Source: Lachnospiraceae bacterium
Lineage (GTDB): Bacteria > Bacillota > Clostridia > Lachnospirales > Lachnospiraceae
Length of the DNA stretch: 41,889 bases
NCBI GenBank assembly: GCA_024688505.1
Contig: JAILDZ010000090.1
Span: forward strand, 1 to 41,889
Reading direction: 5' to 3'
The translations under genes were made by a program, and so were the position numbers. This document shows, one piece after another, positions 36,871 through 41,889 of this stretch. The notes under the pieces are model-generated. The model saw only the letters and a program-made list of their open reading frames with translations, made no database searches and was not told where the DNA came from. Within the stretch, counting starts at the first letter, position 1; each line of letters opens with the position of its first letter.

Positions 36871-36899
36871 TTGACATAGTATGCAAGTATGATTATGAT
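36871..36899 (+). promoter_or_regulatory. Consensus-like sigma-A promoter for the Cys-rich leader ORF
   Basis: TTGACA (36871-36876), 17-nt spacer, TATGAT (36894-36899). Confidence 0.75.
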
Positions 36900-36929
36900 G
36901 TAAAACATCAAAAGAAAGGAAGAACATAA

Positions 36930-37031
36930 ATGATGAAAGCACTAACAAATAATTCAAACTACATGATGTGTTGCTGTTGTATTCATTCCCGGGCATATGA
37001 TATGGCTGGTGTGTGTTCACGCCGATCTTGA
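36930..37031 (+). CDS. 33-aa Cys-rich leader peptide candidate (MMKALTNNSNYMMCCCCIHSRAYDMAGVCSRRS)
   Basis: ATG with aaaggaag RBS 7 nt upstream, promoter immediately upstream, attenuator-like structures immediately downstream; below the ORF track length cutoff. Confidence 0.75.
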   Translation: MMKALTNNSNYMMCCCCIHSRAYDMAGVCSRRS

Positions 37032-37091
37032 TACTTAAAAGATGATAAATGCCATATGATTCCGGGAGCAAACTAAGAGCTCCCGTTTTTT
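36987..37091 (+). promoter_or_regulatory. Candidate transcription attenuator: mutually exclusive antiterminator and terminator hairpins
   Basis: Antiterminator: tcccgg (36987-36992) with ccggga (37062-37067) and atatggc (37000-37006) with gccatat (37051-37057). Terminator: cgggagc (37063-37069) with gctcccg (37079-37085) followed by six T's (37086-37091). Both use 37063-37067. Confidence 0.65.
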
Positions 37092-37133
37092 ATGTAAACG
37101 ACTTAGACAGATCAGACAGAAAGGAAAGAAAAA

Positions 37134-38342
37134 ATGGCAAATGCATGCTCTTTAGAAAACAGACCAAATAATACATATACAGATGAACTGGCAGAAAAGT
37201 TCGCAAAAGAGGTGGGAGTGGATCCCAGACCAAACGAAGTGAATGACGAGCTGGATGAGAGAGGTGCTTTCGTCCGTCAGGCAAACACATTTATCACACC
37301 CTTCGGTGACGGAGAGAATGATCTTAAGGCTGAGGCAGACAGATATGCGATCTACTGGATGCACGGATGCCACTGGTCAAACCGCCCGGTGATAGTGAGA
37401 GACATTTTGGGGCTTACTGATGTGATAAAGGATGTGGCCACCACCCATACGGGACAGTCGAATGTGTACGGTCACGGATTTGCAGATCAGAAAGACTTTA
37501 AGGACCCTATCCTGGGAGCATACTTCTTAAGTGAGTTCTATAAGAAAGCCAAACCCGATTTCACCGGAAGAGCAACCACACCCACACTGGTGGACACAAG
37601 AGAAAGGACAGCAGTAAACAATGATTACCATCGTCTTACAAATTATATCGAGGTACAGTTCAGAACGTTACAGCCTGTCGACGCACCGGATCTTTACCCG
37701 GTGAAATACAGAAAAGAGATAGACGAGTTTAATGACTGGCTTTTCCCCACTGTAAATAACGGACATTATCGTATGGCCTTTTGCCAGTCGTGGGAAGCAT
37801 ACAGCGAAGCATATGAAGACTTTTATGACTCCATAGAAAAGCTGGATAAGAGGCTTGAAACAAACCGCTTCCTCTTCGGGGATTACATAACAGATTCGGA
37901 TATCAGGCTATATGTGACACTGGTACGGTGGGAGACAAGTTATTACCACAATGTGGGCCCCACGAAGAAAAGACTCACAGAATATCCGAGCATATGGGGA
38001 TATGTGAAAGATCTGTACAGCCTGCCGGTATTTAAGAAATACACATTCTTCGAGTTCCCGAAGACAGACTCAAAAGAATTCTTTGTGAGTTTTGCGGCTC
38101 GTATCGCTTCCCAGGTGCCCTACGATGAACTCTGGAAGACAGACGGAAGCAGAAAGAAGCTTTCAAACGATCCTGAAAATGTGTATAAAAAGCATCCCGA
38201 AGGAGAGACTGCAGAGGATTATCAATCAGTGATCTCGGTTTCCAAATGGAATGCAAAAGATCCGGCAGAAAGGGACTCAAATAAGAGAACCATATCGCAG
38301 GATCCGGCCGTTAACCCTATCACATCAAAGCTTAGAGATTAA
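37134..38342 (+). CDS. Glutathionyl-hydroquinone reductase / Xi-class GST-like protein
   Basis: ADRYAIYWMHGCHWSNRPVIVRDILGL (family motif CPWA reads CHWS), TPTLVDTRERTAVNNDYHRLTNYI, GDYITDSDIRLYVTLVRWETSYYHN. Confidence 0.75.
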   Translation: MANACSLENRPNNTYTDELAEKFAKEVGVDPRPNEVNDELDERGAFVRQANTFITPFGDGENDLKAEADRYAIYWMHGCHWSNRPVIVRDILGLTDVIKDVATTHTGQSNVYGHGFADQKDFKDPILGAYFLSEFYKKAKPDFTGRATTPTLVDTRERTAVNNDYHRLTNYIEVQFRTLQPVDAPDLYPVKYRKEIDEFNDWLFPTVNNGHYRMAFCQSWEAYSEAYEDFYDSIEKLDKRLETNRFLFGDYITDSDIRLYVTLVRWETSYYHNVGPTKKRLTEYPSIWGYVKDLYSLPVFKKYTFFEFPKTDSKEFFVSFAARIASQVPYDELWKTDGSRKKLSNDPENVYKKHPEGETAEDYQSVISVSKWNAKDPAERDSNKRTISQDPAVNPITSKLRD

Positions 38343-38360: not shown

Positions 38361-39125
38361 ATGGCAAAACTATTTGATTTCCAACTGGTATTTACAGAGA
38401 TCCCTGACCTCCTGGCATATCTTCCCACCACACTTTTTCTGACATTTGTGGCGCTTCTCATAGGACTTCTGGTGGGCTTTGTCATAGCCATAGTCAGGAT
38501 GAATAAGATACCGGTACTCAGTCAGCTGGCTACAGCATTCGTGTCTGTACTTCGCGGCACACCCATAATAGTGCAGCTTTACATCAGCTACTTCGGAATA
38601 CCTATAGCTTTAAAGTACATTAATTACTATCGTGGCACAGACTTTAACATTAACGACATACCCGGGATCATATTCGCCATGATAGCTTTGGGACTGAATC
38701 AGTCCGCATTTGATTCCGAAACCATAAGATCGGCGATACAGTCCGTGGATAAGGGTCAGCTGGAGGCAGCAAAATCCATGGGCATGACAGGATGGCAGGT
38801 TCTTCGCAGAGTGACCATACCCCAGGCTGTATCCGTCGCCCTCCTGCCACTCGGTAATTCCCTTATAGCGCTAATAAAGGGTACCTCACTGGCATTCACA
38901 TGTTCCGTAATGGAGATCACGGCGGCAGGTAAAGTGCTGGCGGGCAGGAACTACAGATACTTTGAAGTGTACTGCTCCCTGGCCATCATATACTGGGTCA
39001 TCACATTCATCTTAGAAAGAGTGATGGCAGCCATAGAAAAGAAGGTCTCCATACCTGAACAACCTCCGGAAACGGAGAAATCGCTTCCAAAGCAGAGTGA
39101 AGCAAGAAAGGAGGCTCTGGCATGA
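38361..39125 (+). CDS. Amino-acid ABC transporter permease (cystine/polar amino-acid type)
   Basis: FVSVLRGTPIIVQLYISYFGIP and EAAKSMGMTGWQVLRRVTIPQA (EAA motif). Confidence 0.92.
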   Translation: MAKLFDFQLVFTEIPDLLAYLPTTLFLTFVALLIGLLVGFVIAIVRMNKIPVLSQLATAFVSVLRGTPIIVQLYISYFGIPIALKYINYYRGTDFNINDIPGIIFAMIALGLNQSAFDSETIRSAIQSVDKGQLEAAKSMGMTGWQVLRRVTIPQAVSVALLPLGNSLIALIKGTSLAFTCSVMEITAAGKVLAGRNYRYFEVYCSLAIIYWVITFILERVMAAIEKKVSIPEQPPETEKSLPKQSEARKEALA

Positions 39126-39889
39126 GTCTTGTGGAAATAAAAGGACTGAAAAAGTCCTTTGGCAATAACGTGGTGCTGGACGGTATCGACCTTAGCATTG
39201 AGGAAGGCGAAGTGGTAGCCATCATAGGTCCATCCGGCACAGGTAAATCCACACTTCTAAGGAGTATTAATCTGCTGGAAAAACCTGAAGACGGGCAGAT
39301 TACTATAGACGGAGAAACATACGACTTATCTAGGATCACATCAAAGGAAAAACTGGGTCTTCGTCAGCATACAGAAATGGTTTTCCAGCAGTTTAATCTA
39401 TTTAAACACAGAAATGCACTTGAAAACGTGATGGAAGGACTGCATGTAGTGAAGAAGCTTTCTAAAGAAGAGGCAAGGCAGGCGGCTCTGCAGGAACTTC
39501 GGAAAGTGGGGATGGGAGACAGGCTATATCACTATCCCAGACATCTTTCGGGAGGTCAGCAGCAGAGAGTGGCTATAGCCAGAGCCCTGGCACTTAAACC
39601 AAAGCTCCTTCTTATGGATGAGCCAACCTCAGCGCTGGATCCGGAACTGGTGGGTGAGGTGCTTCTTACCATAAAACAGGCAGCCAAAGACGGATATACC
39701 ATACTCCTTGTGACGCATGAGATGGATTTCGTGAAGAATGTGGCAGACAGGATCATATTCCTGGAAGAAGGAAAGATCGTGGCGGACGGCACACCGAGGG
39801 AGATACTCGATAATCCTGAAAACGAAAGGCTTCGCACATTCTTAAGAAACATTAATATGCTCCGAACAGCAGATGATTACGTGATATAA
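39122..39889 (+). CDS. Amino-acid ABC transporter ATP-binding protein
   Basis: Walker A GPSGTGKSTLL, signature HLSGGQQQRVAIARAL, Walker B LLLMDEPTSALDPE. Confidence 0.95.
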   Translation: MSLVEIKGLKKSFGNNVVLDGIDLSIEEGEVVAIIGPSGTGKSTLLRSINLLEKPEDGQITIDGETYDLSRITSKEKLGLRQHTEMVFQQFNLFKHRNALENVMEGLHVVKKLSKEEARQAALQELRKVGMGDRLYHYPRHLSGGQQQRVAIARALALKPKLLLMDEPTSALDPELVGEVLLTIKQAAKDGYTILLVTHEMDFVKNVADRIIFLEEGKIVADGTPREILDNPENERLRTFLRNINMLRTADDYVI

Positions 39890-39900
39890 GAGGCAAAAAG

Positions 39901-41133
39901 ATGAGCAGAACAGCTATAAAAAACGTCAACGTGTTTGACGGCATAAATGAAAAACTGCAGGAAAATGTGTCGGTGATCATTCAGGACAACAAGGTGGAGG
40001 ACATCCTTTCCGGGGAGTATTCATCGGAACAGATAGATGAAGTGATAGACGCAAAAGGCTATACACTGATCCCGGGACTGACCGACTGCCACGTGCATAT
40101 AGCTCACTCCCGTACCTTTGATGACAGAGTGGATCAGAAAGTAGTGCAGGGAGTGGCAAATGCAAAGGACTTCCTGATGAAGGGATTCACCTCTGTCAGG
40201 GATGCTGGTGGTATCACATACGGGCTTAAGGAAGGCATAGATAACGGCATCGTAGACGGACCCAGGATCTTCCCGTCCAATGCATTTCTGACACAGACCA
40301 GCGGTCATGCGGATTTCAGACAGAGTAAATCGGAATTTCGTATAGCAGACCGCATATATGCATCAGGTGCAGCCATGACAGGAGAAGCCTGGTATGCGGA
40401 TGGAGTGGCTGAAGTGCTTAGGGGAGTGAGGGAAAACTTTTTCCTGGGTGCGTCGCAGATAAAGATCATGGCCGGTGGAGGTGTGATGTCATTAAGTGAT
40501 CCGATAGACACCATACAGTTTACCAAAGAGGAAATGGAAGCTGCTGTGAATGCGGCGGCAGACTATGGCACATATGTGATGGCACATTTATACACTCCAC
40601 CTTCCATAATGAGGGCGGTGAAAGCAGGAGTGAAGAGCTTCGAACACTGTCAGCTTATGGATGAAGAGTGTGCCAGGGCCCTCTCGGATGCGGATGCTTT
40701 CATAGATCCCTGTCCCAATATGGCAAAGGAAGCACCGCCTGTCATAATGAATCACCCCATAAGGCGCGCTAAGCAGCTTCGTGTGAGCACAGGTGAAAAA
40801 CATGAGGCAGAGTTGATCGAAAAATACAAACTGAAGCTTCTCTTCGGAACGGACAGTAACGGAGGAAATCCGGAAGATCTTTCACATTATAAAGAACGGT
40901 GGGGAAGCCTTGAAGGATTAAGATCAGCCACTGGAAACGTGAATGAACTGACGAAGCTTACCACTTATCAGAATCCGTATCCCGACGGCGAGATAGGAGT
41001 GATAAGAAAAGGGGCTTTCGCAGATCTATTAATAACAAAAAATAATCCGGTAAAGGATCTGGACATACTATCAGATCCGGATAACCTGCTTCTTATCATG
41101 AAAGACGGCAAGGTCTATAAAAACGGATTATAA
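39901..41133 (+). CDS. Metal-dependent amidohydrolase (imidazolonepropionase/prolidase-like)
   Basis: GLTDCHVHIAHS (HxH), QIKIMAGGGVMS (Lys), VMAHLY and SFEHCQLM (His), LLFGTDSNGG (Asp). Confidence 0.88.
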   Translation: MSRTAIKNVNVFDGINEKLQENVSVIIQDNKVEDILSGEYSSEQIDEVIDAKGYTLIPGLTDCHVHIAHSRTFDDRVDQKVVQGVANAKDFLMKGFTSVRDAGGITYGLKEGIDNGIVDGPRIFPSNAFLTQTSGHADFRQSKSEFRIADRIYASGAAMTGEAWYADGVAEVLRGVRENFFLGASQIKIMAGGGVMSLSDPIDTIQFTKEEMEAAVNAAADYGTYVMAHLYTPPSIMRAVKAGVKSFEHCQLMDEECARALSDADAFIDPCPNMAKEAPPVIMNHPIRRAKQLRVSTGEKHEAELIEKYKLKLLFGTDSNGGNPEDLSHYKERWGSLEGLRSATGNVNELTKLTTYQNPYPDGEIGVIRKGAFADLLITKNNPVKDLDILSDPDNLLLIMKDGKVYKNGL

Positions 41134-41160: not shown

Positions 41161-41889
41161 ATGAAGAACATGAAACTCGCAAAGAAGATCGTAAGCATTA
41201 TCGCAGCCACAGCGCTCACAGCAGGTATGCTGGCAGGATGCGGTGCCAAAGCTGCTTCAGATAGCACATCGGTAAGTGATACAGAAAATGCTGCAGAAGA
41301 TGTGGCAGAGGTGTCCACATCAGATGTGACTACCATAGTAGCGGTGACAGGGGCAAGTCCCAGACCCTTCACATATTACGATGACAATAATGAACTGGTG
41401 GGACAGAACATTGAGCTTGTGAACGCTATTTTTGAGAAGCTTCCACAGTATGAACTGAAGTGGGAGGTGACAGACTTCCCGTCCATTTTTGCAGGACTTG
41501 ATTCCGACAGATATCAGCTGGGAGTAAATAACTTCGGTATGAATGATGAGAGAAAAGAGAAGTATCTCTTCTCAGATCCTATCTTCGCAAATCAGCTGAT
41601 CATCGTATCCGGTAAGGATGTGGATCTGCCGGAGGGAGAAGAGTTGGATTATTCAGACCTGGCCGGACTGGAATTTGTGGGCCAGGCAGCTGTGAACCAG
41701 ACCACAAATGTAGAGAACTATAACGATGAAAATCCCGATAATCCCATCACTCTCACATACACAGAAGAGGATCTGGCAAACCAGCTTCAGGCTATCCAGG
41801 ATGGAAAGTATGATTTCACCACTATCGATGCTCCCATGTACTACGGATATTACCAGCCTGAATTCGGTCTGGATCTGAAGGTTAACTAC
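41161..41889 (+). CDS. ABC transporter substrate-binding lipoprotein (polar amino acid type), truncated by window end
   Basis: MKNMKLAKKIVSIIAATALTAGMLAGCGAK lipobox; PFTYYDDNNELVGQNIELVNAIFEKLPQYELKWEVTDFPSIFAGLDSDRYQLGVNNFGMNDERKEKYLFSDPIF typical SBP_bac_3; no stop before window end. Confidence 0.88.
   Translation, partial: MKNMKLAKKIVSIIAATALTAGMLAGCGAKAASDSTSVSDTENAAEDVAEVSTSDVTTIVAVTGASPRPFTYYDDNNELVGQNIELVNAIFEKLPQYELKWEVTDFPSIFAGLDSDRYQLGVNNFGMNDERKEKYLFSDPIFANQLIIVSGKDVDLPEGEELDYSDLAGLEFVGQAAVNQTTNVENYNDENPDNPITLTYTEEDLANQLQAIQDGKYDFTTIDAPMYYGYYQPEFGLDLKVNY

Follow-up and report, generated by a model that had tools for sequence, protein, structure and literature searches.

A probable cysteine-responsive leader-peptide attenuator upstream of a glutathione-S-transferase-like and cystine-type ABC transporter operon in Lachnospiraceae

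The leader region and its operon

The window, by which we mean the whole 41,889-nucleotide (41.9-kb) stretch of DNA analyzed here, derives from a Lachnospiraceae genome represented by a 2.2-Mb assembly that is 77% complete. It ends in an operon on the + strand, to which all coordinates below refer, whose first gene (37134-38342) encodes a glutathione-S-transferase-like (GST-like) protein (GST_C_2). This gene is followed by an amino-acid ABC permease of the cystine/glutamine type (38361-39125; best match a cystine permease, below cutoff), an ABC ATPase (39122-39889; best match TcyN (L-cystine), likewise below cutoff), an amidohydrolase that is possibly a peptidase (39901-41133) and an amino-acid ABC solute-binding protein (41161-41889), which is cut at the contig end and clusters with its counterparts in related operons. 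On inspection, the gene 5' of the leader described below appears to encode phosphoenolpyruvate carboxykinase and has its own terminator. Two more GST-like genes were observed in tandem elsewhere in the same genome (G000:C120; L006 and L007), and no Cys leader was found upstream of them.

The operon is preceded by a sigma-70-type promoter sequence, TTGACA-17-TATGAT (36871-36899), which matches 11 of 12 consensus positions and is assigned from that match only; two promoter-like sites occur in the region against 1.6 expected by chance. The Shine-Dalgarno-like (SD-like) sequence AAAGGAAG (36915-36922) lies 7 nt 5' of the ATG of a leader peptide ORF of 33 residues, MMKALTNNSNYMMCCCCIHSRAYDMAGVCSRRS (36930-37031), with homologous leaders in relatives, and those relatives kept by the scans also have an SD-like site 5' of the leader start. 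The putative sensor consists of the tandem Cys codons TGT TGC TGT TGT (36969-36980), which are found in relatives as well and are adjoined on the 5' side by Met-Met (36963-36968), while a fifth Cys codon, TGT, is located at 37014-37016. Across the window, no other run of at least three TGY codons falls in a short ORF that has both an SD and a start codon. The leader peptide matched no Pfam or NCBIfam family, and a pattern search of its own genome for poly-Cys leaders gave 12 matches, with a clear leader fit only for the one in the window. The initial annotation had proposed the promoter, the ribosome-binding site, the ORF and its Cys codons, and all were confirmed from the sequence at these positions.

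Directly past the sensor codons, fold predictions and covariation delineate a long-range hairpin composed of the antiterminator 5' arm A, TCCCGGGCATATGATATGGC (36986-37006), which is located inside the leader ORF, an enclosed and conserved mid-hairpin H (37007-37024), which contains the fifth Cys codon, and the antiterminator 3' arm B (37051-37068). Folded alone, the A:B hairpin has a free energy of -33.1 kcal/mol (z -4.7; 0 of 200 shuffles). Arm B shares bases with the 5' arm of an intrinsic terminator (37063-37091), predicted from its fold (-13.0 kcal/mol, z -3.85), with a 7-bp stem (37063-37069/37079-37085) followed by T6 at 37086-37091; because its loop is 9 nt, this terminator is missed by a simple terminator scan. 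The two structures are mutually exclusive, as their arms overlap at 37063-37068. Of the pairing originally suggested, 36987-37006 with 37051-37067, the arms themselves held and the 3' end needed moving one base further, to 37068; the 7-bp terminator stem with T6, overlapping the antiterminator partner, was borne out as drawn. In relatives, terminators were found at a comparable distance.

Homologous leaders in other genomes

Relatives were gathered with the GST-like protein, giving a set of 397 Lachnospiraceae genomes and 79 named loci; many have an SD-preceded, short Cys/Met-dense ORF directly 5' of the gene and then a terminator. An alignment of 14 leaders of one type (type I), including the window (A2), was the basis of the covariance model R1, which matches 45 of the 397 genomes (about 1 in 9) in 41 genera and, in a class-level sample, nine of 290 genomes besides the window's own, spanning four other families. 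A second model, R2, built from 18 sequences with the window left out, recovers the window element at 36969-37093 with an E-value of 1.4e-6, the runner-up in the window having an E-value of 0.53; in the complete 2.2-Mb assembly, the element is the only match (E 7.5e-5), and in a 300-genome phylum sample one further genome matches. A strict poly-Cys pattern was found in only four of the 397 genomes (the reversed pattern gave no matches among the genomes listed); the mixed Cys/Met type, which the model catches, escapes it. Since the GST operon is absent from the three sampled congeners, the conservation is across genera and not within the genus. The window leader is one member of a wider leader family. 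Cys/Met-rich leaders near GST/ABC operons were also observed in records labelled Bacillales, Acholeplasmatales and Treponemataceae (L058 at 974; L092 at 3436 and 6317; L099 at 4850).

Both A:B and H are supported by covariation. Among 70 aligned matches, 88.1% of the cells in the antiterminator and H are paired, compared with at most 49% when the structure is slid along the alignment, and 20 of 25 pairs have changed on both sides. The double-changed cells number 130 against 48.3 +- 6.6 in shuffles, and the covariation score is 0.264 against 0.154, neither value being reached in 500 shuffles; this alignment was fitted to the model and is biased toward the structure. In A4, a MAFFT alignment of 18 sequences without the window and without model fitting, 16 double-changed cells were observed against 7.4 (0 of 500 shuffles), and the smaller MAFFT alignment A2 has the same, weaker trend, its double changes alone not exceeding the shuffles. 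The 3' arm of the terminator is more variable and less well aligned, with 71% of its cells paired. Conservation had been named as a check in the initial annotation, and upon running it we found leader, Cys codons, antiterminator and terminator kept in dozens of genera, with covarying stems. That a short Cys-run ORF merely came to lie above an ordinary intergenic terminator is a reading consistent with the unremarkable promoter consensus, taken alone, and with the single such element in its own genome; it is refuted by the leave-one-out model match, by the covariation and by the dozens of genera that have homologous leaders, and we give it practically no credence.

In 55 distinct motif-bearing leaders, a Cys/Met-rich block is followed by R-M-x-x-S-[RQ]-A, giving a consensus reading of M-C-C-R-M-x-x-S-[RQ]-A. 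Before the conserved R, Cys and Met account for 15.6% and 15.4% of the residues, respectively, with Cys encoded by TGT 176 times and by TGC 52 times. CGA is the codon for the conserved R in all but one of the 55 leaders (54), under a search motif that admitted four variants and no others; in A2, an alignment unselected for CGA, CGAATG is present in 13 of 14 sequences. The exception is the window, which has C-I in place of R-M and is therefore a divergent member of the family. A conserved Cys/Met-rich motif might also mean that the peptide itself acts, as a small metal- or redox-binding protein for which the terminator is incidental, and metal binding through CCCC or MCMC is possible. However, outside the Cys/Met block the leader sequences vary freely, the conserved S-[RQ]-A segment is the translation of arm A and is explained by the covariation of this arm with arm B, and the terminator lies at a short distance and overlaps arm B, all of which make an acting peptide improbable.

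The genes controlled in relatives were examined for 51 of the 54 family-level matches, some of them assigned by similarity to scanned homologues. About 49 of the 51 matches sit 5' of sulfur-related genes, those of cystine-type ABC transporters among them. The first genes encode O-acetylhomoserine/O-acetylserine sulfhydrylase (TIGR01326), in many cases with CysK next in the operon, or else CysK itself, a cystathionine gamma-lyase-like protein with CysK, MetQ, MetN-MetI, an SBP_bac_3-NlpA/MetQ fusion, amino-acid ABC solute-binding proteins, GST-like proteins or a sulfopropanediol dehydratase. At one locus (L185), a short-chain dehydrogenase gene lies 5' of CysK, and the two misfits, a putative cyclase (L132) and an unassigned gene (L145), have no obvious sulfur fit. 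In the closest element-bearing GST orthologs, the element heads a longer operon in which the leader is followed by genes for a PepT-like peptidase, a TauA-like binding protein, CysK, GST, CysK and ABC proteins. The Cys codons match the predicted sulfur role of the downstream genes, a cystine-type ABC transporter in the window and cysK, the OAH sulfhydrylase gene and others in relatives. Several further arrangements were observed. Some operons contain two Cys leaders, one before the GST gene and one before the PepT-like peptidase gene (L071 at 10458, L074 at 8958, L079 at 8958 and L080 at 8963), and fusions of SBP_bac_3 and NlpA/MetQ solute-binding proteins occur at L126, L129, L133, L134, L140 and L143. 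At L153 (1740-3149), a (2S)-3-sulfopropanediol dehydratase-like glycyl radical enzyme is encoded 3' of the element, a context that suggests sulfonate use under the same control.

Amino-acid genes in Firmicutes are thought to be controlled mainly via T-boxes and riboswitches, and Cys T-boxes, which link Cys-tRNA charging to the transcription of cysteine genes, are common in this phylum. A structured, conserved RNA 5' of sulfur genes could accordingly be a metabolite- or tRNA-binding RNA that the ORF overlaps fortuitously. Against this, no Rfam model, T-box RF00230 included, gave the element a score that reached or approached threshold, no T-box was detected in its genome (by a search of low sensitivity in a control run), and the Cys codons are conserved in the reading frame of a start codon that follows an SD, which renders a binding RNA very improbable. 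Weak His_leader-like Rfam scores at gathering and relaxed thresholds fell on the upstream terminator only and were discarded.

Sensing of Cys alone does not predict that Met is enriched as much as Cys, and the two sulfur amino acids may be sensed together. The rival reading that the attenuator senses sulfur amino acids generally, or chiefly Met in some members, draws on these nearly equal proportions before the conserved R, on MetQ or MetNI downstream of some members and on the Met-Met directly 5' of the Cys run in the window. We nevertheless regard it as rather unlikely, since in 41 of 55 leaders the residue just before the conserved R is Cys, several members have four to six tandem Cys codons with no comparable Met-only leader seen, and Cys genes are as frequent as Met genes among those controlled. 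Class-I leaders, in which Met is enriched equally with Cys before the conserved R, include L126, L129, L133 and L144.

Predicted operation of the switch

The element is very probably a cysteine-responsive, ribosome-mediated transcription attenuator, a reading supported by its parts and their conservation, by covariation in both A:B and H, by the genes that it precedes and by folding simulations; its translation, the stalling and the cysteine response we infer. The simulations are equilibrium folds with the ribosome footprint masked. In the window, the terminator probability is 0.42 and 0.27 with Cys codon 1 and 2, respectively, in the A site, 0.71 and 0.87 with codon 3 and 4, and 0.92-0.99 with the ribosome past the Cys run and over arm A. 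Most type-I relatives change in the same direction, often more sharply (e.g., from 0.01 to 0.95 in L069 and from 0.00 to 0.96 in L088). As simulated, a stall at Cys therefore favors read-through, while progress favors termination. With the ribosome at the stop codon and arm A free again, the terminator probability in the window is 0.61, so that either fast kinetics or an unseen anti-antiterminator would be needed.

In the proposed mechanism, polymerase would start at the promoter at 36871-36899, followed by a ribosome translating the leader. Under a shortage of Cys-tRNA, this ribosome would stall on the first Cys codons (36969-36980), leaving arm A free to pair with arm B around H, which would block the terminator and allow transcription of the GST/cystine-type ABC operon. 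When cysteine is sufficient, the ribosome would cover arm A during synthesis of B, and B would instead pair with the 3' arm of the terminator, so that transcription would stop near 37091.

The initial annotation had found no strong 1:2 anti-antiterminator, and we likewise found no 1:2 hairpin in the window; the stem tried, 36976-36983 with 36999-37006, has a free energy of -0.9 kcal/mol and zero ensemble probability. In a subset of relatives, the segment CGAAUGC, which would be covered by a Cys-stalled ribosome, can pair with GCGUUCG, the 5' strand of H, so that arm A is left in the loop. The pairing GUCGAAUGC:GCGUUCGAY reaches p<0.05 in about 25% of 64 relatives (mean z -0.9, t -4.2). CGAAUGC:GCGUUCG is thus a candidate anti-antiterminator in this subset and is absent from the window.

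A second leader type (type II, MMMCCCCC), with straight Cys runs and a layout differing from that of the window, was observed in Lachnospiraceae including Butyrivibrio (e.g., L066, L070, L071, L074, L078, L080 and L086). Most type II leaders share the position of the arms TGAAAC/GTTTCA, 8-15 nt past the stop codon (mean z -0.75). Because these arms are not individually significant, it is only suggestive that type II may have its antiterminator arm past the stop codon, where a stop-parked ribosome could mask it.

Relation to known attenuators

We found no earlier description of a cysteine leader-peptide attenuator of this architecture in Clostridia among the papers of an open-literature search. 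A broader proposal, which we hold only tentatively, is that the family represents a widespread, undescribed sulfur regulon of Clostridia in which cysteine synthesis, uptake of cystine, methionine and sulfonate, and use of thiol peptides are coordinated not by T-boxes or S-boxes but by stalling at mixed Cys/Met codons, the near-invariant CGA being part of an anti-antiterminator or a built-in pause. A cysteine attenuator conserved across Lachnospiraceae of the rumen and gut would allow the sulfur regulons of many uncultured species to be recognized from sequence alone and roles to be assigned to unnamed transporters and GST-like genes, and would offer a ready-made cysteine-responsive switch.

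The resemblance to trp/his-type attenuators noted in the initial annotation is supported, as the element shares with them a short leader ORF in which cognate codons follow one another, a terminator with a mutually exclusive antiterminator and an operon matching the sensed amino acid. Those attenuators occur in Proteobacteria and Actinobacteria, whereas the present one concerns cysteine in Clostridia, has its antiterminator 5' arm inside the ORF directly past the sensor codons, encloses a conserved mid-hairpin and, in the window, is without a 1:2 stem. In Firmicutes, leader-peptide attenuation has been reported for hisS/hisZ in bacilli and was considered surprising even for hisS (PMC2965389). 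The uORFC-8-2 element, found exclusively 5' of cysS in Rhodobacterales (alphaproteobacteria) and proposed to act by ribosome-mediated attenuation (PMC8632094), likewise combines tandem Cys codons in a uORF with an intrinsic terminator. However, its two Cys codons lie inside the first stem and its target is cysS only, whereas here the Cys codons precede arm A and the genes are those of sulfur uptake and synthesis, the window gene being GST-like. Poly-Cys leaders, thought to be cysteine-sensing, are known or proposed in Actinobacteria (PMC1262725), including the mycobacterial poly-Cys sORFs of Canestrari 2020, as cited in PMC9094748. These share with the present element poly-Cys short ORFs 5' of cysteine genes; the mycobacterial sORFs are reportedly leaderless and without conserved terminator hairpins, in contrast to the SD, 5' UTR, terminator and covarying antiterminator identified here. 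Unlike in the Cys T-box (RF00230), of which no signature was found here, sensing in the element would be performed by the translating ribosome.
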